Source: Leptothermofonsia sichuanensis E412
Lineage (GTDB): Bacteria; Cyanobacteriota; Cyanobacteriia; Leptolyngbyales; Leptolyngbyaceae
Length of the DNA stretch: 64,000 bases
Assembly (NCBI RefSeq): GCF_019891175.1
Contig: NZ_CP072600.1
Coordinates: forward strand, 2,976,001-3,040,000
Direction: 5' to 3'
In this document: one piece after another, positions 45,810 through 56,685 of the stretch
Position numbering within the stretch: position 1 is the first letter of the stretch
Layout: each line of letters opens with the position of its first letter
Program-made: the position numbers and the translations under genes
The notes under the pieces: model-generated
Told to the model about the DNA's origin: nothing
The model's input: the letters and a program-made list of their open reading frames with translations, nothing else
Databases searched by the model: none

Positions 45810-46604
45810 ATGCCCTCTGGTCAAACCCATGACAGCATTACCCTCTGGAGTCTGCCACTGGTTGCCGGATTGACCTTTGAGCGCACCCAGAGCAGTGGGC
45901 TGACTCTGATGGTGTCAGGGGGATTCCTGTTCAGCGGACTGATGTTTGGTCCTGATCTGGATATTTACTCCCGCCAGTACCGACGTTGGGGACCGCTGCG
46001 CTGGATCTGGCTTCCCTATCAGCGGGGGATGCGCCACCGATCGCTGTTGTCCCACGGTCCCCTGGTCGGTACAGCCCTGCGAATTCTGTACCTGATGGTC
46101 TGGCTGGGGGCGTTGGGTTTTGGGCTAACGGTGCTGGGGGCGATCGCCTTCCAGTGGCTGGGCATTGTTGAACAATGGCACCTGCTTGCCTACTACCAGA
46201 TAGAAGAGAGCACTGCCTGGCTTGGTCAGGTGCTTCAGCGACACCCGGCAGAAACCATTGCCCTTGCGATTGGGCTGGAGTTAGGCGGAGTCAGCCATTC
46301 CCTCAGTGATTGGGTTGAATCCATCTGGAAGCGCCATCGAGTCAACCGTCAATTTCGTACTCGCATTCAAGGCCAGATTAGCCGTTATCAACCGCCCCAG
46401 CCAACCCGGGTATCCTTTAGAGTTAGAACACCGGAAACTGAGCGCCCACGGGATTACCCCTTCATCCGTACAGTATCATCTCGTATTCAGAGTTACTTCC
46501 AGGAAAAACCTGTGCGTTCTCCCAAGCCAGTATCTTCCCCGGTTCCACCCCATTTGCAACGAAGTCCTCAACTGCCGCCTTTCATTCGACAAAGGAAGCC
46601 GTAA
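45810..46604 (+). CDS. DUF2227 membrane metal-binding protein
   Basis: A 264-residue protein with the family's start SGQTHDSITLWSLP and FGPDLDIYSRQYRRWG, RHRSLLSHGP and LGGVSHSLSDW. The His and Asp residues are in the pattern of the YdjM-like membrane hydrolases and suggest metal binding. Three or four hydrophobic segments, then a Pro-rich basic tail of about 80 residues. The last 23 bp overlap the convergent DUF6999-like gene. Confidence 0.75.
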   Translation: MPSGQTHDSITLWSLPLVAGLTFERTQSSGLTLMVSGGFLFSGLMFGPDLDIYSRQYRRWGPLRWIWLPYQRGMRHRSLLSHGPLVGTALRILYLMVWLGALGFGLTVLGAIAFQWLGIVEQWHLLAYYQIEESTAWLGQVLQRHPAETIALAIGLELGGVSHSLSDWVESIWKRHRVNRQFRTRIQGQISRYQPPQPTRVSFRVRTPETERPRDYPFIRTVSSRIQSYFQEKPVRSPKPVSSPVPPHLQRSPQLPPFIRQRKP

Positions 46605-47517
46605 TTTCCTTGCGGATCTCCAGGTAGCGGTGCAGGTACTCGGTGATAATGCCATGCAGGAGAAGGTTACGGGCGGCGGCAAAGGGGCTTTCCGGTGCCA
46701 GGGGGTGGCGGTTTGTGATGATGTGGTTCCAGTTGTAGTCGCCGGTAATCTGACTGAAGTAACAACCGAAGTTCTCATCAAATTCCAGGGACAGCACAGC
46801 CCGTTCAAATTCTTCACTGGTGAGGCAGAGGGAATAGAACACTTTGAATAACTCAATTGCCGATTCCAGATCTAAAATTTGCAACCTGTGACGCTGGGAG
46901 ACATCGATATCAATTTCTATAGGTTTGATGCTGGCATAGGTCAAACCCCGTTGCTGCACCTGCTGTATCCAGGTGGGATTGGTACGTTGTGCCTGGTTAT
47001 AATCCAGCACAAAGTTGTAAAGAATCAGATCATGTTCCAGAAACGCATTCTCTGCCAGGTCATCAACGGTGCGTGGGTAGAGTGTGGATTTCTCAATGGT
47101 TGGGTCGGGTCCATTATCAATCAGAAAATTGACAATGTTGGAACCAAGGCAAAGGTGACGCACAATCAGATAACAGGCTTCTGGGGTAACAAACGTTTTC
47201 AGAAACCAGGCAGCCGAACGGTGCATCAATGTATAGTTGCTGAACTGGAAGGGCAAAAGACGTTTTACCGTCATAATCAACGCCAGCAGAATATTGGCAA
47301 TAATTTTGATTGGAATCAGCAATAAGGCGCGGGTCCAGTTTTGCAAATCGCGGATCATATAGGCTTTTGCTACCGGATCCACCGGAATTGCCTGATCCAG
47401 GTAGAGGGCATCCCAGGCATTGGGATTGCGGCGATCGCGGGGGTGAGGCGTGTAGGGAGCGATCGCAGCCGCTGAGAGGGCTGACTCAGGGTGAGTTTGA
47501 ACAGACATTGGCTTCAT
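46582..47517 (-). CDS. DUF6999-like protein, last gene of the lipid cluster
   Basis: A 311-residue protein of unknown function. It has NPNAWDALYLDQAIPVD near the N-terminus, a long hydrophobic region (about residues 66-87, IPIKIIANILLALIMTV), then MHRSAAWFLKTFVTPEACYL and IVRHLCLGSNIVNFLIDN, which I recall from DUF6999; this is from memory and unverified. No catalytic motif is obvious. It follows the methyltransferase by 122 bp on the same strand, at the end of six genes that look like a lipid pathway, and may be a membrane-bound accessory enzyme. Confidence 0.55.
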   Translation of the reverse strand: MKPMSVQTHPESALSAAAIAPYTPHPRDRRNPNAWDALYLDQAIPVDPVAKAYMIRDLQNWTRALLLIPIKIIANILLALIMTVKRLLPFQFSNYTLMHRSAAWFLKTFVTPEACYLIVRHLCLGSNIVNFLIDNGPDPTIEKSTLYPRTVDDLAENAFLEHDLILYNFVLDYNQAQRTNPTWIQQVQQRGLTYASIKPIEIDIDVSQRHRLQILDLESAIELFKVFYSLCLTSEEFERAVLSLEFDENFGCYFSQITGDYNWNHIITNRHPLAPESPFAAARNLLLHGIITEYLHRYLEIRKEITASFVE

Positions 47518-47639
47518 AGGACAGGAACTATTGTTGGTTGTTGGTTGTTAGTTGTTAGTAATGTAGTAATGCAGGTTGGGTTTCGCTAACGCTCTACCCA
47601 ACCCTTTCGTCGATGGTGCAAAACTAATGACTCACTGCA

Positions 47640-48527
47640 CTACTCCTTATAGGCTTGCACAACGCCAAAGATCCCAAAGGAATCCATTTGGGTTTGAAGC
47701 CCTTTGAAACCGGCGGCGATCGCCCACGTTTGGGTCAGTTCATAGGAGCGCAGTCGCATTGCCCAGGGTTTTCCCGTGTGGGAGTTCAACACTCTGGCAA
47801 TTAATTCCAGTTGGGGATGATAGGGCTGAATCGTAAAGATTAATACTCCTTTGGAGGCCAGAATTCGGTGTAACTGGTGGAAGTGGTTTCTGACCCGGTC
47901 ATCATCGGGCAGAATTTCGTGTAACCCGGATACCACAATTAAATTTGGACGGGGAAAGACCCGTTCCAGTGCTGCATCACTGAATGCATCTGCCTGCTCG
48001 ATGGTGGCGGTGACTCCCAATTGAGTGGCCAGTTCCTGTGCCTGTTTTACATTTTCCGGCATGTAATCGCGCAGGGTTGCAGTGATGGTATCTGCTGGAA
48101 ATTCACTCAGCACTTCTAAATCGTAACGTCCGCCGCCACAGGCAACATCTAAAAGGTGGACAGGAATGCCCTGAGCGATATGAGTTTGAATCGTCTGCCG
48201 CAGCACTCCTTTCAAAATCTGCTCCCGTTCACGGATTCCCTGCCAGCCCTGGGAATTTAAGTAGATGCGATCAATCACTTTACCCAACCAGTTCTTCCCA
48301 GATGGCTGATTGCGATAAACATATTCCAGCATTACGCCGGAATCAAACCCATATTGTGAACCAATGGCAATTCCGTCGGATAGCTGCCCCACACTGTTGA
48401 GTAACTGCTTAAAAAGGCCGTAATACATGCGTTTAGGGTGCCATGCGGGTAAGGGTTGAATCAGGGATTGATAGGAGGGCAGGCAATTTTGAGACAAGGA
48501 ATTTTGAGACAAGGAATTTTGAGTCAT
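47640..48527 (-). CDS. Class I SAM-dependent methyltransferase
   Basis: A 295-residue protein. The SAM-binding motif I is LLDVACGGGRYDLEVL (about residue 125), followed by TATLRDYMPENVKQA and the post-II segment NLIVVSGLHEILPDD. The N-terminal 100 residues (YYGLFKQLLNSVGQLSDGI, GSQYGFDSG) are not in ordinary methyltransferases and resemble the methylating half of proteins annotated as hydrolase/methyltransferase fusions. The first residues (NSLSQNSLSQN) come from a 15 bp tandem duplication. In this cluster the substrate is probably a lipid head group or acyl precursor. Confidence 0.7.
   Translation of the reverse strand: MTQNSLSQNSLSQNCLPSYQSLIQPLPAWHPKRMYYGLFKQLLNSVGQLSDGIAIGSQYGFDSGVMLEYVYRNQPSGKNWLGKVIDRIYLNSQGWQGIREREQILKGVLRQTIQTHIAQGIPVHLLDVACGGGRYDLEVLSEFPADTITATLRDYMPENVKQAQELATQLGVTATIEQADAFSDAALERVFPRPNLIVVSGLHEILPDDDRVRNHFHQLHRILASKGVLIFTIQPYHPQLELIARVLNSHTGKPWAMRLRSYELTQTWAIAAGFKGLQTQMDSFGIFGVVQAYKE
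48486..48523. repeat. 15 bp tandem repeat inside the methyltransferase start
   Basis: ATTTTGAGACAAGGA is present 2.5 times and encodes the repeated NSLSQ at the N-terminus. The period is a multiple of three, so the frame is kept. Confidence 0.9.
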
Positions 48528-48591
48528 TGAGGAACTCCTGTTTGAATGGAATTGTGAATGGAATTGTCGGCGTTGTCTATTACTGATTGCA

Positions 48592-49233
48592 TTACTCCCA
48601 TGCCAGGAAGTTTTCTTGAGTGGTTAAGGCGTTCATTTTTTGATTTAGCAGATGCATGAATCCCTTTTTACTACCTGTCCACCAGATGGGTTCGCCAATC
48701 AGAACATCACAACAGAAAGGAACTAAGAGTTTTTCACCTTTGGGTAGAGCTTTGCCCAGGCCGTGGAGAAAAACAGGATAAATTGGCACCGTGGGATGGC
48801 GCTTTGCAAGATGGGCAATACCGCTCTGAAATTCAGATAGTAATTCGGGTTTGCCCCTTGTCCCTTCCGGGTAAAGAATCAGGATGTCGCCCTTGGTCAG
48901 GGATTCTGAGCAACCTTGCAGGGGATCCTGACCGTGGGCTTTTACCTGTCGATTCAGGGGAATAATGCCGATGATGTTGAGTGAAAACCAGGCCAGTAAC
49001 GGATTTTGCAAGAAATAGTCGGCGGCGGCGATGGGGTGGATTTTTTCTAACAATCGGATTGGAAACAGATTCATCAATACCATCGTATCCAAGTGACTGT
49101 TGTGGTTGGCAACGATGATGGCCGGTCCTGTTTTTGGTAAACGTTCCCGATGACTGATCCGTACTCCCAGAATCACAAACACAATAAATTTGACAATTAT
49201 GAGAAAGAATAGCGATCGCAATAGTTGAGTCAT
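48592..49233 (-). CDS. 1-acyl-glycerol-phosphate acyltransferase (PlsC family)
   Basis: A protein of about 213 residues starting MTQLLRSLFFLI, with one or two membrane segments at the N-terminus. The catalytic NHxxxxD motif is VANHNSHLDTMVL and the phosphate-binding block is YPEGTRGKPEL. It adds an acyl chain to a lysophosphatidate-like acceptor. Its ATG overlaps the TGA of the upstream cdsA-like gene (ATGA), so the two are coupled. Confidence 0.85.
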   Translation of the reverse strand: MTQLLRSLFFLIIVKFIVFVILGVRISHRERLPKTGPAIIVANHNSHLDTMVLMNLFPIRLLEKIHPIAAADYFLQNPLLAWFSLNIIGIIPLNRQVKAHGQDPLQGCSESLTKGDILILYPEGTRGKPELLSEFQSGIAHLAKRHPTVPIYPVFLHGLGKALPKGEKLLVPFCCDVLIGEPIWWTGSKKGFMHLLNQKMNALTTQENFLAWE

Positions 49234-50192
49234 CTCAATCCCCCGATCCATCCAGAAAAGTAGAAATAGACAGTGAAATGGAAGAAAAGTGGGGCTGTAT
49301 AGGTGAGGCTATCAATTCGATCCAGAATACCGCCGTGCCCAGGTATGAGACTGCTGCTATCTTTTACACCCAGGTCACGCTTGAGGGCTGATACGGTGAT
49401 ATCTCCAATGAAACCTGTAAGACCAATCAACAGTCCAAGCACAACAGCATGAACCCGATGAAATGGAGTCAGCCAGGGAGCCAGAAGAATCGCGATTAAA
49501 ACCGTTGTCATAATCCCTCCCAGCAGTCCTTCCCAGGTTTTATTGGGACTGACCCTGGGGATAACCTTGTGCTGTCCAAAGCATCGACCAAATATGTATT
49601 GGGCAATGTCATTGCTTTCCGTCAGAAACACCAGATAAAACAGGAGTCCTGCACCACCAGCGGCTGGATTGCCTGCGGTAGGAAGCATCAGCAAATAAGC
49701 AAGATGACCCAGGCTAAAAACGGTTAACATTAAGCCCCATTGCAACGTTCCGACGGCTTTCAGAAATCCCTGAGTTTCTTCCAGCAGCACCAAGCGCATG
49801 GGCAAAAACAGGAACATATAAATGGGTATGAAAATCAGGAACATGATGTACCAGTTGATCGAAATCCAGTAATACTGAAGCACGATCGCCAGGTATGCCC
49901 ACAGTAAAGCCTGCCGATCCACCCGCCGGGTTGGAATCAGGGACAAATACTCTTTAAGTGCCAGAAAGCTGACAAAGGCGAAAAAGACCAGCGAAACGGT
50001 TTGATTGAGCAATGCCACCAAAAGCATGGTCACCATCAGCCACCAGGATTTTACCCGTTGTTTGAGTTCGGTATAGTCCTGATTTGGCTTGACAAACGCA
50101 AGGGTGTAAATCATGCCAGTGGAAACACAGAGTAACCCAAATACCCCGGCAAACGCCCATAGAACATTAGTGGGCAGCCCCATCCTGATCAT
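49230..50192 (-). CDS. Phosphatidate cytidylyltransferase (CdsA family)
   Basis: Up to 320 residues; ATG 50183 is another possible start. Eight or so membrane helices. The C-terminal CdsA signature is intact: SALKRDLGVKDSSSLIPGHG followed by GILDRIDS. It makes CDP-diacylglycerol (or a related CDP-lipid) from a phosphatidic acid and CTP. It overlaps the CDP-alcohol phosphatidyltransferase gene by 26 bp and the acyltransferase gene by 4 bp. Since the genome should hold a housekeeping cdsA elsewhere, this is likely a pathway-specific copy. Confidence 0.85.
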   Translation of the reverse strand: MIRMGLPTNVLWAFAGVFGLLCVSTGMIYTLAFVKPNQDYTELKQRVKSWWLMVTMLLVALLNQTVSLVFFAFVSFLALKEYLSLIPTRRVDRQALLWAYLAIVLQYYWISINWYIMFLIFIPIYMFLFLPMRLVLLEETQGFLKAVGTLQWGLMLTVFSLGHLAYLLMLPTAGNPAAGGAGLLFYLVFLTESNDIAQYIFGRCFGQHKVIPRVSPNKTWEGLLGGIMTTVLIAILLAPWLTPFHRVHAVVLGLLIGLTGFIGDITVSALKRDLGVKDSSSLIPGHGGILDRIDSLTYTAPLFFHFTVYFYFSGWIGGLR

Positions 50193-50799
50193 GGTTTTCT
50201 ACCTCTAAGAGTGCGTTTCTAACTCGATCGCGGATTGTCCATACAAGCAAGCCAGTGACACCAATCCATACCCAATCCAGCCATGCACCCGGTGTCACAC
50301 CAGAGGCGAGCAGGAGGGCAATTACACTGAACACAAAGGCGCGATCGCTCTTACCCATATAGCCGTCATAGCGTCGCTGTCCCCCTACGACTGCACCCAG
50401 AACGCCTGCCATTTCACTGATGATGGACAGAATGACAATTAAAACCAGCAGGTAACCCTTCACACCAGCAATCAAGCTAAAGGGGAGATACAGAGCCGCA
50501 TCCGAAATCACATCACCCAGCTCATTCAATATGGCTCCCAAAGCAGACTTCATGCCATACTCACGGGCTAACATGCCATCGATGGCATTCAGTGCCATAC
50601 GGACAAATGATATCAGGGGAATGAGCAGAAGCACCCCTCGCCACGCATGTCCAGCAGCGATCGCGATGCCTGCCAGACCAGAAAGCAGAACGGCTGCGAT
50701 CGTAACTTGATTGGCTGTGACTCCCCAGGTGGCTAACTGAGCAACCAGGGGTCGCAATTGCTGTTGAAAAGCGGGTTTCAGTTGATATAAGCCAGACAT
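50167..50799 (-). CDS. CDP-alcohol phosphatidyltransferase with altered motif
   Basis: A 210-residue membrane protein with five or six helices. The family motif DGx2ARx8Gx3Dx3D reads DGMLAREYGMKSALGAIL then NELGD: the third Asp is Asn. The following VISDAALYLP has further acidic residues. The change may reflect a subfamily with a different alcohol acceptor, as I recall NELGD-type sequences in other genomes. It joins CDP-lipid to an alcohol. It is the second gene of the lipid cluster. Confidence 0.8.
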   Translation of the reverse strand: MSGLYQLKPAFQQQLRPLVAQLATWGVTANQVTIAAVLLSGLAGIAIAAGHAWRGVLLLIPLISFVRMALNAIDGMLAREYGMKSALGAILNELGDVISDAALYLPFSLIAGVKGYLLVLIVILSIISEMAGVLGAVVGGQRRYDGYMGKSDRAFVFSVIALLLASGVTPGAWLDWVWIGVTGLLVWTIRDRVRNALLEVENHDQDGAAH

Positions 50800-50809
50800 A
50801 ATCTAAATA

Positions 50810-50878
50810 GTCTGTCAATTAGACGGGTATAGCAGGGAACAGGGACGCAGACTCGTCAAAATTTTCCTGATAGAAAAC
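50810..50878. repeat. Decayed family A element with a family C piece inside
   Basis: Flanked by TA (50808-50809, 50879-50880). The left end GTCTGTCAATT and the right part GCAGACTCGTCAAAATTTTC, CTGATAGAAAAC match family A. Between them is TATAGCAGGGAACAGGGA, the start of a family C repeat. Its terminal C (50878) forms the G of the TAG stop of the ketosynthase gene. Confidence 0.65.
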
Positions 50879-52815
50879 TAATGGATTTCTTCCAGTTGCA
50901 GCAGATACAAGCGGGCAGTGACCTGAGCAGTTTTCACAATCCGTTGAGCAATTTCCTGGGTCATCCACTCAGCATTGATCAAGGAATTCAATTTGCCAAT
51001 GTGGGACTCATCGTTTTCGCTATGGTAAGCCAGAAACGAAACCTGATCGTCCTGCAAATTCAGGGTTGCCTTGATTTGCTCTGCCCACTTACCGGCCAGA
51101 TTATTCCCTAACCCTTCAATGATGAACATACTGCCAATCAAATCCACCGGATTTTCCCGTGATGCCTGATGGAAGATGAACGCCGACAGTGCCTCACTGC
51201 CAATGTTCTTTTCCGCATTCACAATATCTTCCAGCACACCCCCGACTGAAACATAGTTACGTTCCAGCATTTGAAAGTCGCGATGTTCGTCCTGGGCGTG
51301 ACCAATGAACAGCGATCGCAACCGGAAATCCGTCATATTAGATGCCGCCCGGGCAATCCAGCGGGCACCTTCGACTACCTGGGGGCGCAGGTTACGCAGG
51401 AGTGCCTGGTAATCCTCCACCGTAAATTCACCCCGATGCAGTTTGCGCACCATTGGTACCGAGCGAATTTTCCGCTCAAACTCCAGCCAGGTAAGGGCGA
51501 GGTGGTGCAGGAGGTAGGCAGAAGGGGTGGGGGGTGAGGAGTGGGGAGTTGAAAGTTGAAAGTTGGACGTTGAAAGTGGAGACTTGGAGAGTGAAGAATG
51601 TTCTCCTACCTCCTCCGCTTCTCTGCTCCCCTGCTCCCCTTTCTCGTCTTCCCTCTCTCCGCTCCCCTCTCTTCTCTCCTCTCTCCCCTCCCCCACGACC
51701 GTCAACAGCAGATACGCCGTTGTAAACCGCCCACTTTCGGGAACGAAGCAGAAGATTTTCTGTCCGGGTTGCAACTTGCCAGAGTGGAAGAGTTCTTCCA
51801 GCATCAGGTAGATGGAGGCACAGCCAGTGTTTCCGCGGGTGTAGAGGTTGGTGAACCACTTTTCTTCGGGAATCATGCAGCCTGCTTTTTCCAGCAGTTC
51901 TACGATTTGTCCCCGGAAGAAGTGGGAGGAGTAGTGACAGAGTAGCCAGTCAATCTCATCGGGATGCACCCGCCCCAGTTCAATCAGCTTCAGCCAGCCT
52001 TCGACGCCCAGCTTGATGACATTGTCCAGTAAGCGAATGTTCTGGCGCAGGTTAATGGCTCCAGCTTCGGCCGCCGCCGCGTAGGAGGGATAGTCCATCC
52101 AGCTTTTTTGAGCCGACTCGGTGTCGGTTCCGGCATACATGCAGACCGGGTAGGCATTTGCGTGGGAAGCCATCTCAATCCACTCGACTTTAAGGCTGAT
52201 GCCTGTTGAGTTGGGATGGTTCTGAATCAGGAAAGCTCCGGCACCATCGGAGAGCATCCAGCGGAGAAATTCGGTATCGAAGCTGAGGGGTTTTCCGGCT
52301 TTAATGCTGGCTTCGGTTTCAAAGTGGGTGTGTTTAAACAGGCGAGAGGGTTGTTCCGAAGCAACGGCGATCGCTGCCCGCTTTTCCCCCAACTTCACCT
52401 GAGAACAGGCATACTTTAATGCGGCCACTCCGGCACAGCACACCCCCATATTAGTGATGGTTTCCAGGGGCGACAGTTCGGGCAGTTCCCCATGCACCAT
52501 ACTGGCAAATCCCGGCACCAGCAAATCTGCCCAACTGGTTCCAGCGCAGAGTAGATCGATCGCTGCTGGTTCCAGATCAACCTGGCTCAAGGCATCTCGA
52601 ACAGCGTGCGCTGCCATCTGGCTATTGAGATAGGTTGTTTGTTGATTTTGATCCAGGGCATAGTAGCGTTGCTGAATGCCATTGCTTTTGAGAATCCGAT
52701 GTTTGACTTTGGAAGGGCGATCGTTGATCCTGCCCAGGTAGTCCTCCATCTGGTCATTGGCGATCGGATTTCCAGGCAAAAACTTGCCGATGCTGTTAAT
52801 AAACACACCGTACAT
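50878..52815 (-). CDS. StlD/DarB-like ketosynthase fused to haem-oxygenase-like diiron domain
   Basis: A 645-residue protein. Residues 1-375 are a thiolase-fold beta-ketoacyl synthase III with catalytic Cys126 or 127 (NMGVCCAGVAALK), His294 (LLCHYSSHFF) and Asn329 (TRGNTGCAS); the opening FINSIGKFLPGNPIANDQME is like the StlD/DarB group, which joins acyl chains in resorcinol-type lipids. Residues 377-432 are a Glu/Arg/Ser low-complexity linker. Residues 435-645 resemble the haem-oxygenase-like diiron oxidase/oxygenase fold, with Glu482, the HAQDEH segment (506-511), Glu567 and a final HxxxDxxH (His598, Asp602, His605). UndA and CADD belong to that fold and act on fatty acids or aromatic substrates. 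First gene of the lipid cluster; stop codon made by a family A remnant. Confidence 0.8.
   Translation of the reverse strand: MYGVFINSIGKFLPGNPIANDQMEDYLGRINDRPSKVKHRILKSNGIQQRYYALDQNQQTTYLNSQMAAHAVRDALSQVDLEPAAIDLLCAGTSWADLLVPGFASMVHGELPELSPLETITNMGVCCAGVAALKYACSQVKLGEKRAAIAVASEQPSRLFKHTHFETEASIKAGKPLSFDTEFLRWMLSDGAGAFLIQNHPNSTGISLKVEWIEMASHANAYPVCMYAGTDTESAQKSWMDYPSYAAAAEAGAINLRQNIRLLDNVIKLGVEGWLKLIELGRVHPDEIDWLLCHYSSHFFRGQIVELLEKAGCMIPEEKWFTNLYTRGNTGCASIYLMLEELFHSGKLQPGQKIFCFVPESGRFTTAYLLLTVVGEGREERREGSGEREDEKGEQGSREAEEVGEHSSLSKSPLSTSNFQLSTPHSSPPTPSAYLLHHLALTWLEFERKIRSVPMVRKLHRGEFTVEDYQALLRNLRPQVVEGARWIARAASNMTDFRLRSLFIGHAQDEHRDFQMLERNYVSVGGVLEDIVNAEKNIGSEALSAFIFHQASRENPVDLIGSMFIIEGLGNNLAGKWAEQIKATLNLQDDQVSFLAYHSENDESHIGKLNSLINAEWMTQEIAQRIVKTAQVTARLYLLQLEEIH
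51522..51690. repeat. Low-complexity purine/pyrimidine tract inside the ketosynthase fusion
   Basis: On the plus strand it is made of GTTGAAAGTTGAAAGTTGG and CTCCGCTTCTCTGCTCCCC-type runs, the kind of sequence otherwise found between genes here (compare 53035-53085). The frame is kept, giving a hydrophilic linker between the two domains. Confidence 0.75.
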
Positions 52816-53082
52816 GATTATTCCTCTTGAATTGTGTCAATGGTCGATTTGGTCCCTGGTGGTCCCTGGTTACCAGGCTCCAGCTTAGTAAACCTTCTGT
52901 GGAAGCTGGAGTTTCCACTTTCCACTTACCAATCGTTTCGTCTACTTACCCAGGTAATCTGGAAGCTCTCCTGTGTCGTTACCAGGCTCCAGCCTGGTAA
53001 CGAGAACTAAACTAACAACTAACAACCAATAACTCACTTCTCACTCCTCACTCCTGACTCCTCACTCCTCACCCCTCACTTC
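52816..53082. other. Intergenic region with repeats
   Basis: Has a 10 bp tandem duplication GGTCCCTGGT (52851-52870), a repeat with GTTACCAGGCTCCAGC at both ends (about 52869-53007) related to 45510-45640 in reverse, and a run of CTCACTCCT units (53036-53085) next to the following gene's stop. Confidence 0.55.
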
Positions 53083-53811
53083 TCAAAAACGGTAGTTGCG
53101 ATCGCGCACCCATAAGCTAACCGGCACACTGTTTCCGTGGGCATCAACTTTGACATCGACGACAAATGCCTGCCGTTGCGGTTGACCTGGGCGCTGTTGA
53201 GGCTGTCCCGGTTGCCGTTGAGCTTGATTAATTTCGGCGTTTAACTGATTTCGCTGATCCTCTGGCATGTAGTAGGTTTCTAATCCGTAGATGACCTGCC
53301 AGCCAGTGTATTCTCCCCGCAATGCCACCTGATCAGGTGCCAGATCGGTTGGGCGTTTGGCACTTACCCGAACAGGTTTCCAGGGAGTTGGAGGAGTGGT
53401 GTTAGCAGACTGAGGGGCTTCCAGTACAACATAAAGACTGGCACGCTCATAGGATGGATGGGTATCGAAGAATTCTTTGCCACCGGGGAGCTTTTTCAGA
53501 TCATCCGGTCTGGAGATGGTGTAGTTGAGGGTTTGAGAATAGCCCCGCAACAGGTCATAGGGGTCTACTGGAACCGTTTGCAGGGTAATTGGAGTGCCTG
53601 TGATGGAGGTGTAGGCATCCTGGGCTGGAATTGCCACAATCAGAGCAGACTGAAACAGAAGGGGAACCCAAAATCGCCAGGAGGGAATCCTGCGAGGCAA
53701 TGGTTTTGAGCTTTGGTTCTCCTGTTCCACTTCTGGAACCACTTCTGGAACGAAGGATTGAGGCGATTCAGGCTCGGAATTGGGGCTGTTGAGAGGAGTA
53801 TTAGAAGTCAT
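53083..53811 (-). CDS. GDYXXLXY-domain protein
   Basis: A 242-residue protein with one membrane helix (about residues 46-63, FWVPLLFQSALIVAI), a disordered acidic N-terminus and an exported domain with DPYDLLRGYSQTLNY, which is the GDYxxLxY-type motif, and LRGEYTGWQVIYGLETYY. Near the end there is a PGQPQQRPGQPQ repeat. The family always seems to accompany DUF2157 membrane proteins; here the ATG overlaps the TGA of that gene. Function unknown. Confidence 0.8.
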   Translation of the reverse strand: MTSNTPLNSPNSEPESPQSFVPEVVPEVEQENQSSKPLPRRIPSWRFWVPLLFQSALIVAIPAQDAYTSITGTPITLQTVPVDPYDLLRGYSQTLNYTISRPDDLKKLPGGKEFFDTHPSYERASLYVVLEAPQSANTTPPTPWKPVRVSAKRPTDLAPDQVALRGEYTGWQVIYGLETYYMPEDQRNQLNAEINQAQRQPGQPQQRPGQPQRQAFVVDVKVDAHGNSVPVSLWVRDRNYRF

Positions 53812-55271
53812 GGAGTACCCTCCTGGGAGGAATTGGCGGGAAGTGCAGATTTGGCAGGTTTAAGATTGCGTTCAAAGTAAAGACCAGCAACGATGACACC
53901 CACTCCGCAGAGGATGAAGACAAATGCCTTCAACAGAAGGGCGGTGTCATATTCCAGCATTCGGCTCAGAATGCCCAATACCAGCAACGACATCCCGCCC
54001 CAGAAGGTACGGCGGGTACCCAGTGCCAGCCCATCCCGAATCAGGGCGATCGCCAGCAGAAACAGCATCAGGTTGACCAGGAAGGGAGCGATTACTGGTA
54101 AAGGTTGCACACTGGTATGCCAGAAGAAGATGGCTGCCGTCAGAATCGTGAAGATGGCGATCGCACCATTATTCACAGACTTTTCCTGGAACAGGCTCAG
54201 GTAGCGCAACCGATAACTCAGGCGCAACCATCCCAGGAGGGTCAGAACCAGGAACAGGAACACATCCAGGTGACGCCAGAGTTGCCCGCTCCAGGCATCA
54301 CTGGAGGGGGAAAAGAATCCTCTGTCCCAGAGCCAGTGAAACGAGAAAAGGTAGAACAGGAAGCTGAAAAACCAGACAGACAAACTGCGGGCAATGGCTG
54401 AGAACGGATCAACGGGAGCGGGAACAGGGGAAACCACACGACTACCGGACTCTCTGGACAATTGCCAGAGATGGCTATCATAGGCCCACAACAGGGCAGG
54501 CGGCAGGGCAAAGGCGATCGCCACCAGCCACCCTGCCTCCCGGTACTGCCAGATGGATAAAGGTTTTATTCCGAACACAAACAGGGTTGCAAAAGCAATG
54601 CCACTCAAACAAAAGAGGACCCGCGATCGACGGCACCAGTACGCCAGAGGCACAAAAACCAGACTGGCAATCAGGGCCATGTTAGGCATGACCATCCCTA
54701 TCCAGGATGACATCTGAGCAAAACTGCCACTGAACCACCACATCCAGTAACCAATAAACAGCAAAATCCATGCCAGGACACCCAGGGAAACAAGCCTCAG
54801 ACCGTATGCCATTGCCACCACCCCCAATCCCCAGATGAAGTAGAGTTCAAACACTTCTCCACTTTGGTGAAACATCTGGGACATCAGTGCCATGTTTGCT
54901 CCCAGAATCAATGCCCCCGTCAACAGCAGTCCGTGGCCTAATCGCTGTAAACCTCTACCAATCGCAGGCTTTCGCCACAGGTAAAACCCCGCAACATTCA
55001 CTCCAACGAAGAGACTGATCAATAGAAAAACGCGAAACTCCCGTGACCATTCCTGCCAGTTGGCGGCAACAAAGGTGATCACCCCCAGGCCCAGGAGAAT
55101 TCCCCCTAAGCTCAGCAAAATAGTGACAAAGCGATTGCTGGCAGACGCTTCAATCTCTTCCAGGTGATAGCGGTCTGATAATCGCTGATAGAGGGAGGCA
55201 TCAATCAATCCGTCCTGCCACCATTTCTCTGCCTCCTGGCGCAACTGGCGGCGAAAATTTTCAGTTACCAT
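53808..55271 (-). CDS. DUF2157 membrane protein
   Basis: A 487-residue protein. The cytoplasmic N-terminus (LRQEAEKWWQDGLIDASLYQ, LSDRYHLEE) is the DUF2157 start; about 12 to 14 membrane helices follow. No transport or enzymatic motif was recognised. It forms a coupled pair with the GDYXXLXY protein (ATGA overlap). Confidence 0.8.
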   Translation of the reverse strand: MVTENFRRQLRQEAEKWWQDGLIDASLYQRLSDRYHLEEIEASASNRFVTILLSLGGILLGLGVITFVAANWQEWSREFRVFLLISLFVGVNVAGFYLWRKPAIGRGLQRLGHGLLLTGALILGANMALMSQMFHQSGEVFELYFIWGLGVVAMAYGLRLVSLGVLAWILLFIGYWMWWFSGSFAQMSSWIGMVMPNMALIASLVFVPLAYWCRRSRVLFCLSGIAFATLFVFGIKPLSIWQYREAGWLVAIAFALPPALLWAYDSHLWQLSRESGSRVVSPVPAPVDPFSAIARSLSVWFFSFLFYLFSFHWLWDRGFFSPSSDAWSGQLWRHLDVFLFLVLTLLGWLRLSYRLRYLSLFQEKSVNNGAIAIFTILTAAIFFWHTSVQPLPVIAPFLVNLMLFLLAIALIRDGLALGTRRTFWGGMSLLVLGILSRMLEYDTALLLKAFVFILCGVGVIVAGLYFERNLKPAKSALPANSSQEGTP

Positions 55272-55604: not shown

Positions 55605-56184
55605 AGTCGTAAATAAAGGAAACAACAAAAGGAAGCAACATTGAGGAACACAAATCAGAATCGCAGATTCAACTCTGCCAATATCGTTAAGCAACCCCTT
55701 ACGTGAGATGGGAATCCTGGAAAAATTCACTAATATCGTCAAACGTTAATGGGAATTGACCATCAACTTTGAGCTAATAACATCAATTTCAGACCTGACT
55801 ATCTGAGAAATAAACCTTCATTTGCAATCAGAAATCAAATGAGATAACGAAAGAATGATTACTGATTGATTCATTCATCTGACTCGATTCAGCTTCAAAT
55901 CTCACTTTTCGAGCGTTGTAGCCATCAAAATATAAGTCAAACTAGCAAATGTAAAACCTTATCACTTCTACCACCGGATACTTCACCCCACCCTGCGGAA
56001 ACGCTAGAGGCAACATCCCTCACCTCTCATTTCTCATTTCTGACCTCTCATCTCTAAATCATGACTAACAGGAATGCTCAACTGTCCACCCTTATCCTTG
56101 TGCCACTTTTAATAAGTGGTACGAGACAAACCGTTGAAACAGTTGTCCAGGCGAGATTTGAGGTGGATTAAGAGGACACATTCA
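55605..56184. other. Divergent intergenic region, 580 bp
   Basis: A/T-rich near the YiaAB gene, then a CTCACCTCTCATTTCTC low-complexity tract (about 56018-56057) and a hairpin GTGCCACTT / AAGTGGTAC (about 56099-56121) before the Coq4-like gene. No further gene was seen. Confidence 0.5.
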
Positions 56185-56685
56185 ATGGACAGATCCCATT
56201 CCGTTTTTGTTGTTAGAAATCAAACAATCACTCTGCGAGAAGGACTCGATCGCTACTACCAGGCAAACCCCGACTTTGTGCAAAATCAAGACCTGTGGGT
56301 GGGGCGAATGCGGATTCCCTGGTGCGATATGCAACGACACGACATCATGCATGTCGTTACAGGTTACAGTACCGAACTGGATCAGGAGCTTCAATTAATT
56401 GGTTTCCTGTTAACTGCCCTCACCTGGCGACGCCCCTGGTACTACTATGCCCAGAGCTTTGTCGTATTTCTGGAGCTTCTCTGGCAGTCTGTTCAGGGCA
56501 AAGCCTGGGGAAGCCGTTACTTTAACCCTGTGCAGGTCTGTCAACTGTACATGAAAGGAGTAAGACAGGGATTCACCATTCGTAAAAAAATTGATGCCTA
56601 CATTGACCCTGAAACTGTCCTGGATAGAAAACTGGTGTCTCTGAGGCAAGAGTACGGGATTCAAAATGCAGGGGCATGGGATTAG
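56185..56685 (+). CDS. Coq4-like protein
   Basis: A 166-residue protein starting MDRSHSVFVVRN; AGAGGA lies upstream. The metal motif of Coq4, HDxxHx11E, is complete: HDIMHVVTGYSTELDQE, about residues 52-68. It is preceded by PDFVQNQDLWVGR and followed by helical hydrophobic sequence. In eukaryotes Coq4 acts in the coenzyme Q complex, removing the C1 carboxyl group and helping hydroxylation. Cyanobacteria make plastoquinone, so another isoprenoid or lipid substrate, or a scaffold role, is likely. Confidence 0.7.
   Translation: MDRSHSVFVVRNQTITLREGLDRYYQANPDFVQNQDLWVGRMRIPWCDMQRHDIMHVVTGYSTELDQELQLIGFLLTALTWRRPWYYYAQSFVVFLELLWQSVQGKAWGSRYFNPVQVCQLYMKGVRQGFTIRKKIDAYIDPETVLDRKLVSLRQEYGIQNAGAWD

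Follow-up and report, generated by a model that had tools for sequence, protein, structure and literature searches.

In the window analysed here, the 64,000-nucleotide stretch of the Leptothermofonsia sichuanensis E412 genome as a whole, six genes lie on the reverse (-) strand between positions 46582 and 52815. The first in reading direction encodes a fusion protein, KS-HDO, in which a StlD/DarB-type ketosynthase (KS) domain (residues 1-376; 51688..52815) is joined to a heme-oxygenase-like dimetal oxidase (HDO) domain (50878..51519) by a low-complexity linker (51520..51687) that is variable in the alignment of relatives and overlaps repeats common to intergenic DNA. It is followed by the genes for a YnbA-like CDP-alcohol phosphatidyltransferase (CDP-OH; 50167..50799), a YnbB-like CdsA of the CDP-diacylglycerol synthase type (49230..50192), a PlsC-type lysophospholipid acyltransferase (48592..49251), a methyltransferase resembling the C-terminal domain of YnbC (47640..48527) and a DUF6999 protein (46582..47517). 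The Pfam scores all exceed the curated cut-offs: ACP_syn_III_C 43.8 bits, Haem_oxygenas_2 (PF14518) 31.9, CDP-OH_P_transf (PF01066) 33.6, CTP_transf_1 227.5, Acyltransferase (PF01553) 83.9, Methyltransf_20 (PF12147) 286 and DUF6999 (PF22523) 359.7. A sequence-only reading of the locus had named these six overlapping or closely spaced genes and their domains, and both stand; the NCBIfam StlD/DarB model NF005293 gives 447.7 bits, just short of its cut-off of 450.

Spacing is uneven across the block. The CDP-OH and CdsA genes overlap by 26 bp and the CdsA and PlsC genes by 22 bp, while 78 bp separate KS-HDO from CDP-OH, 64 bp PlsC from the methyltransferase and 122 bp the methyltransferase from DUF6999; overlaps are thus confined to the inner four genes (the quartet). 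The G+C content is lower in the quartet (0.456-0.494) than in the KS (0.503-0.552), a difference that is not decisive. No clear transcription boundary was found in a scan of the locus, which returned 9 promoter-like sites (10.5 expected) and 13 terminator-like sites (10.2 expected).

The same reading held that none of the genes is the housekeeping copy, and the single-contig genome of 6.43 Mb agrees. A genome-wide profile search detected a second CdsA-type gene (C1:825773, 220.7 bits), a PgsA above the TIGR00560 cut-off (C1:2882819, 170.2 versus 109.1) and seven further PlsC-type matches, one of which exceeds the AGP_acyltrn cut-off. Its assignment of the locus to lipid chemistry is likewise borne out by family membership.

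The KS-HDO and DUF6999 cassette

The outer genes, KS-HDO and DUF6999, are an old conserved cassette (module A) that occurs without the inner four. Among 67 other DUF6999 loci that were fetched, 61 also contain KS-HDO, which DUF6999 adjoins in relatives, and quartet genes are found in none. These loci partly overlap the genomes of a 386-genome cyanobacterial sample, in which all eight other genomes with DUF6999 above the cut-off carry it within 0.6 kb of KS-HDO, again without the quartet. Genomes were searched for five of the six loci lacking KS-HDO; the fusion lies elsewhere in four and is absent from one. It was found neither in G394 nor in the genome with a DUF6999 fragment (L134/G428). In the cyanobacterial sample, G277 and G295 matched DUF6999 weakly and were set aside, with no cassette genes nearby. 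One match in the Acidobacteriota sample (G835) spans only 40 positions, and the Caulobacter control also gave a match.

Outside the cyanobacteria, KS, HDO and DUF6999 follow one another in order in three Actinomycetota genomes, in Longispora and two Acidobacteria MAGs, and on a Pseudoalteromonas plasmid, where KS and HDO are separate genes. The trio is also present in two more Acidobacteriota, in one of which two ORFs intervene. No single branch of the KS tree sets the cassette sequences apart, because the long Streptomyces and Pseudoalteromonas sequences are not resolved in it.

A further gene, 56116..56685 on the forward (+) strand, encodes a Coq4-like protein with an HDxxH...E motif. It lies outside the six-gene block, was missed by the sequence-only reading and co-occurs with the outer pair. 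Across the 42 genomes of the taxonomic family, which are related by kinship and hence not independent, DUF6999 is present in 19, KS-HDO in 18, a close Coq4-like homologue in 17 and the quartet CDP-OH gene in one, that of the strain studied here. The close homologue accompanies KS-HDO in 17 of 18 genomes and is present in none of the 24 without it. Distant paralogues at E ~1e-6, found in three of those 24 genomes and in one with KS-HDO (G404, G406, G414 and a second match in G417), are excluded from the count of 17; their inclusion gives 20 of 42. Three genera each include one genome (G410, G399 or G418) that has none of the three genes, while congeners have them. The Coq4-like gene is found in 17 of the 67 DUF6999 loci, and every non-cyanobacterial locus tested lacks it. 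A gene of 185 aa upstream of the Pseudoalteromonas KS was considered as a Coq4 counterpart and rejected; it has no Pfam match either. The Coq4-like protein is a probable third member of module A. Beyond its cluster, 3 of the 25 neighbour clusters listed are mixed-strand (11, 8 and 5 loci); by their first residues these were taken for sensor and TPR families.

Our literature search returned no papers on DUF6999, and no description of a cyanobacterial KS/heme-oxygenase-like fusion appeared in the portions of the literature covered. Cyanobacterial DarA/DarB clusters are described, in the sections available, with CylC halogenases and not with a KS-HDO fusion. Module A is therefore a widely conserved cassette that is apparently undescribed, as far as the literature was searched.

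The inner ynbABC-type quartet

The inner four genes (module B) resemble the ynb operon of Escherichia coli, whose ynbABC order their YnbA-, YnbB- and YnbC-like members keep. Identity amounts to 44.9% with YnbA over 198 aa, 45.2% with YnbB over 301 aa and 41.6% with the methyltransferase domain of YnbC; the methyltransferase, a protein of 295 aa, matches YnbC residues 312-583 only. The ynb-type operon that Citrobacter TSA-1 carries has its PlsC gene in the corresponding place. Of 5426 genomes, 4227 have at least 80% of ynbABC, and no product of this operon was found in the parts of the literature searched (PMC6362211; PMC2435150). The quartet occurs without module A, in the same order and at 50-70% identity, in three other cyanobacteria, and alone on a Pseudanabaena plasmid. 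Its gene set, together with YnbD, is carried on plasmids of Citrobacter, Shinella and Burkholderia. It is best read as a mobile ynbABC-type phospholipid module.

This distribution bears directly on the claim of the sequence-only reading that all six genes form one dedicated pathway, whose phospholipid-like product would carry an unusual acyl or aromatic part. The common strand, the small gaps, the compatible enzyme families and the housekeeping copies elsewhere all fit such a pathway. The six-gene set is, however, confined to this genome and was found in no relative examined, an outcome that the sequence-only reading itself counted against its claim, the quartet is missing from every other DUF6999 locus, its CDP-OH gene occurs in a single family genome and each half is found elsewhere without the other. 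A single pathway is thus very improbable, and the sequence-only reading as a whole is partly supported.

The quartet points the same way as its neighbours HDO and DUF6999, from which gaps of 78 and 122 bp without a clear terminator separate it. This would also suit a local co-option, in which a quartet acquired by chance now modifies or carries the module A product, or is co-regulated with it in this strain. No second case was encountered, the overlaps stay within the quartet and the locus lacks it in the other module A carriers examined, which makes co-option rather unlikely.

We consider it probable, by contrast, that two functionally separate lipid modules are nested in one directional block, with A leading to an oxidised alkyl lipid and B to a minor phospholipid. 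This reading draws on the observed gene content and homologies, on the finding that each module occurs without the other, on the three-gene co-occurrence, on the KS catalytic residues and on the predicted HDO fold. From these we infer which module was inserted, as well as each reaction and product given below: module B would have been gained horizontally and ended up between HDO and DUF6999. Being co-directional with A, the quartet could now be co-transcribed with it, which speaks against the two-module reading.

Candidate chemistry of the two modules

The KS profile aligns with StlD (5gk0) over positions 3-374 (E 4e-103). Residues C126, E154, H294 and N329 are identical in all 68 aligned KS rows and match StlD 5gk0/5gk2; E154 corresponds to a glutamate that we take to be important in StlD-type ketosynthases. 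For the HDO domain, with 31.9 bits against the PF14518 cut-off of 28.9, the AlphaFold2 model (pLDDT 91.4) predicts a heme-oxygenase-like fold, superposing on 3dde (Z 25.5, rmsd 2.0, 212 aligned residues), CADD 1rcw (Z 24.1, rmsd 2.0, 208 aligned) and UndA 4wwj (Z 19.4, rmsd 2.9, 212 aligned). The Pseudoalteromonas HDO, which has a gene of its own, is not matched by PF14518 at E <=1. The usual ligand set of the superfamily is three His and three carboxylates on the three core helices. E135 and the HxxxDxxH residues H166, D170 and H173 are invariant in 35 of 35 HDO rows. In the helix-1 column, a His in 3dde and in four free-standing relatives is replaced by Asp81 in the cassette HDO, which shares ~20% identity with the outside rows and whose metal site may therefore depart from the usual one; H74 and H79 are invariant nearby, and E78 is also close.

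The DUF6999 protein (PF22523 cut-off, 27 bits) is predicted to be all-helical (AF2 pLDDT 86.5). Its model found no match in the PDB by Foldseek at E <=0.001 and none at Z >=5 among 574 chains by VIA-align, and a sequence search of the PDB gave one match at E 0.72, which was not used. The Coq4-like family matches PF05019 weakly in 15 of 15 homologues, below the cut-off (12.7 versus 22.9 bits; best E 0.0024), and nothing was found for it in the PDB by sequence at E <0.1.

In the proposed pathway of module A, the KS would join two activated acyl chains by StlD/DarB-type chemistry. The resulting 1,3-dicarbonyl or dialkyl ring would then pass to the tethered HDO, which would use O2 to oxidise it by aromatisation or hydroxylation. 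Later steps such as ring decarboxylation or hydroxylation may fall to DUF6999 and, in many cyanobacteria, to the Coq4-like protein, and the product would be an oxidised alkyl lipid, probably aromatic or quinone-like. It is also conceivable that no ring is formed and that the KS yields a beta-keto acid or long ketone, which the HDO cleaves oxidatively or decarboxylates. The HDO fold takes in the fatty-acid decarboxylase UndA, and the four free-standing HDO relatives are flanked by an AMP-binding protein and an SDR, which fits acyl substrates. Such a product is nevertheless doubtful, as the KS finds its best PDB match, by a wide margin and along its entire length, in ring-forming StlD and retains E154, and the Coq4-like partner suggests ring chemistry.

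Module A could also be a protective system against oxidative or drying stress, in line with the several carriers of the cassette whose genera are found in mats and soil crusts. Acinetobacter offers a precedent with DtpC, an HDO-like protein that limits desiccation-induced H2O2 (PMC13232832). Its gene forms a two-gene operon with katE, and no ketosynthase is mentioned in the accessible part of that report (PMC13232832). This partnership, and the fusion of the HDO to a synthase, which argues for synthesis, leave a protective role highly improbable.

A more specific version of the ring-forming pathway is itself unlikely to hold in full. In it, the cyanobacterial KS-HDO, DUF6999 and Coq4-like protein would together make a new redox lipid of polyketide origin, either an alkyl hydroquinone or a quinone, and scattered members of other phyla would do so without the Coq4-like step. 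The KS would build the ring, the fused HDO, with an altered helix-1 metal site, would oxidise it, the Coq4-like protein would exchange a ring carboxyl for a hydroxyl, and DUF6999 would represent a new enzyme fold. For module B, PlsC would provide phosphatidate, the YnbB-like enzyme CDP-diacylglycerol and the YnbA-like enzyme a minor phospholipid, with methylation in addition.

One plausible six-gene story is thus replaced by two testable ones. The unstudied Pfam family DUF6999 is now tied to a ring-forming-type ketosynthase and an O2-activating enzyme, and its function is therefore approachable via two- or three-gene expression. The KS-oxidase cassette has the same gene order in cyanobacteria, Actinomycetota and Acidobacteriota and on a Pseudoalteromonas plasmid. 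The E. coli ynb operon now takes its place in a broader family, some plasmid-borne members of which have an acyltransferase in addition.

Comparison with known systems

The cassette KS aligns full-length with StlD and retains the catalytic Cys, His and Asn as well as E154. It differs from the StlD/DarB enzymes in scoring 2.3 bits under their NCBIfam cut-off and far below that of the DarB model (400 versus 550), and in having an HDO, fused or as a separate partner, and DUF6999 at its side. With the HDO superfamily (CADD, UndA, SznF, DtpC) the cassette HDO shares the predicted fold and the four invariant metal-site candidates E135, H166, D170 and H173, whereas Asp81 in place of the helix-1 His and the fusion to a KS set it apart.

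The Coq4-like protein recalls Coq4, which acts in the oxidative decarboxylation of coenzyme Q synthesis, in its HDxxH...E motif region and in the weak PF05019 match of all its homologues, but remains below the Pfam cut-off and has no PDB sequence match at E <0.1. Ubiquinone is not known as a cyanobacterial product.

In module B, homologues of YnbA, YnbB and the YnbC methyltransferase follow the order of E. coli ynbABC. Unlike both that operon and the one of Citrobacter TSA-1, the locus is devoid of the alpha/beta-hydrolase half of YnbC and of a YnbD-type phosphatase, YnbD giving no BLASTP match among the 16 window queries tested. With PlsC included, the order of the quartet is identical to that of the Citrobacter TSA-1 plasmid operon.

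Two probable nested gene modules

The sequence-only reading had described six ORFs with lipid-related domains and this was borne out: all are encoded by the minus strand and carry the domains as named. A StlD/DarB-type ketosynthase fused to a heme-oxygenase-like dimetal oxidase (KS-HDO) and a DUF6999 gene enclose a quartet encoding a CDP-alcohol phosphatidyltransferase (CDP-OH), CdsA, PlsC and a methyltransferase (Methyltransf_20). The view that none is the housekeeping copy also stands, because the host genome, a single 6.43-Mb contig, holds a second CdsA-type gene, seven more PlsC-type matches (eight in all), and a PgsA and an AGP acyltransferase, both above the NCBIfam cut-offs, the latter being one of the seven. 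The proposal of a single six-gene pathway found no support. A scan of named genomes yielded 67 DUF6999 loci, and the quartet is present in none of them and KS plus HDO in 61. The best reading is that of two nested modules, a ynb-type phospholipid module and a cassette of KS-HDO, DUF6999 and a Coq4-like gene.

Neighbourhood conservation, suggested earlier as a check on the six-gene set, was seen at other DUF6999 loci for the outer pair only. DUF6999 scored above cut-off in nine of 386 cyanobacterial genomes sampled, host included, and in all eight others KS-HDO adjoins it, with none of the inner four genes in the surrounding stretches of about 20 kb. This count and that of the 67 loci are not independent, since several genomes are common to both. 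The closest named loci came from cyanobacteria labelled Lyngbya, Stenomitos, Leptolyngbya, Tildeniella and Pantanalinema. Six of the 67 loci were devoid of KS-HDO (L079, L118, L121, L122, L132 and L134). Searches of five of their genomes showed KS-HDO elsewhere in four and none in that of L134. In the L118 genome, KS-HDO runs up to a contig edge, so that it may adjoin DUF6999 there too. L132 lies at the end of a contig, and its sister contig in the same assembly (L135) carries KS-HDO.

Distribution of the cassette

Outside the cyanobacteria, DUF6999 was detected in 4 of 396 Actinomycetota genomes, and KS, HDO and DUF6999 follow in this order in all four (Longispora and three others). Five of 396 Acidobacteriota genomes carry DUF6999; KS-HDO lies upstream in four of these (four loci read), once with two intervening ORFs. 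On a Pseudoalteromonas plasmid, KS and HDO are separate genes followed by DUF6999, the HDO being 50% identical to the fused domain. The cassette order thus persists at DUF6999 identities of about 27-34%, and tblastn found no quartet member in these non-cyanobacterial loci. A 185-aa protein directly upstream of the Pseudoalteromonas KS (L072:14436-14993; no Pfam match) may also belong to the cassette on that plasmid. A contig labelled Euryarchaeota (L139:3447-5360) bears a cassette very close to those in two Acidobacteria MAGs; because of this likeness and its broken KS frame it was not counted as archaeal, and the label is probably a binning error.

Between KS-HDO and the Coq4-like gene (56116-56685, plus strand) come a minus-strand GDYXXLXY/DUF2157 pair and, past it, a small ORF (53083-55271); relatives of this pair were found in none of the 67 cassette loci. 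Of these loci, 17 include the Coq4-like gene, which varies in strand and in the side of the cassette that it occupies, and which was the cassette's commonest partner when all locus ORFs were clustered (15 loci at the clustering threshold). The clustering also showed three further mixed-strand groups (11, 8 and 5 loci), which resemble generic sensor or TPR proteins; the other groups shown are each confined to one strand and look like synteny shared among related strains.

In the host's family (42 genomes), DUF6999 was present in 19 (as fragments in one, G394) and KS-HDO in 18 of these, and 17 of those 18 also have a close Coq4-like homologue (E below 1e-60); the one without it, G423, is 85% complete. 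Relaxing the threshold to E 1e-5 brings the Coq4 count to 20 by adding three genomes devoid of KS-HDO, whose matches are distant paralogues (E about 1e-6). Fisher's exact test for KS-HDO against close Coq4-like homologues (17/1/0/24), which ignores kinship, gave 7e-11. Kinship does not explain the whole pattern, because three genomes (G410, G399, which is 84% complete, and G418) lack all three genes and differ in this from genomes of their own genus.

The quartet as a ynb-type module

The quartet proteins are 44.9% identical to E. coli YnbA, 45.2% to YnbB and 41.6% to the methyltransferase half of YnbC. Methyltransf_20 matched 30 of the 386 cyanobacterial genomes at E 0.001 and strongly (E below 1e-80) only four, host included. 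The other three have the same order of CDP-OH, CdsA, PlsC and methyltransferase at 50-70% identity, with no match to KS, HDO or DUF6999 at these loci (one on a contig of only 8.1 kb). Looser versions occur at four more fetched cyanobacterial loci (seven fetched in all). Among plasmids, 30 records had a CDP-OH relative, and four of these were read: a Pseudanabaena plasmid holds the exact quartet, a Citrobacter plasmid the quartet with full-length YnbC and YnbD, and Shinella and Burkholderia plasmids the Citrobacter gene set rearranged; no ketosynthase is annotated in any of the four stretches. We infer that the quartet is a horizontally acquired unit now lying between HDO and DUF6999, because it stands alone elsewhere, its CDP-OH protein occurs in one of the 42 family genomes, the host's, and its overlaps of 26 and 22 bp are internal, with wider outer junctions (gaps of 78 and 122 bp).

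One of these looser loci (L068:8104-14545) looks like a different lipid cluster from that of the window. Its ynb-like set shares a single-strand run with genes that by inspection encode a Rieske-type oxygenase, an aminotransferase-like protein, a hydrolase and an SDR. In small genomes (about 2 Mb) from other parts of the phylum (L069-L071), the ynb-like set is rearranged, and its CdsA shows 48-50% identity to that of the window.

E. coli YnbB is described as a non-essential CdsA paralogue whose overproduction raises MPIase (PMC6362211). A ynbC transposon insertion is reported to cause polyphosphate accumulation in one strain background, and a Keio-background deletion none (PMC2435150). A limited literature search found no product for the whole operon.

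Proposed chemistry of the cassette

StlD/DarB-type ketosynthases form 1,3-cyclohexanediones and resorcinols. The alignment with StlD spans the whole KS, and C126, E154, H294 and N329 are identical in 68/68 rows, one of which (L139) contains an internal stop; H294 aligns with the StlD His at which 5gk0 and its deposited variant 5gk2 differ. The KS-HDO linker (51520-51687) overlaps low-complexity repeats that recur in intergenic DNA around 53036-53079 (inverted repeats I1, I3 and I5), as though the reading frame had absorbed repeat DNA.

The HDO domain gave a confident model matching 3dde and CADD, with E78, E135, H166, D170 and H173 invariant in 35/35 sequences. Its metal site may be altered, because Asp81 replaces a His of four free-standing relatives and 3dde, and most HDOs are described as using three His and three carboxylates as ligands (PMC13108848); H74 and H79, both invariant, lie near Asp81. 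Free-standing relatives between an AMP-binding protein and an SDR form a recurring three-gene set on Citrobacter, Variovorax, Alteromonas and Vibrio plasmids (L224-L227). DUF6999 was modelled as all-helical (pLDDT 86.5), with no confident fold match in structure comparison; its seven residues invariant over 43 sequences (R120, H121, H162, D163, D216, H288 and E293) suggest that it is an enzyme.

From the StlD alignment and residues, the HDO model, the DUF6999 residues and the relation to COQ4, we infer every reaction of the cassette: KS would catalyse a ring-forming condensation, the fused HDO domain would then oxidise the product with O2, and further ring tailoring would follow. Human COQ4 is described as swapping a ring carboxyl for a hydroxyl (PMC11495197), and the cyanobacterial protein is only its weak relative. 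Within the literature searched, the cassette and the combination of its enzymes are apparently undescribed; the recognisable enzymes themselves are of known kinds.
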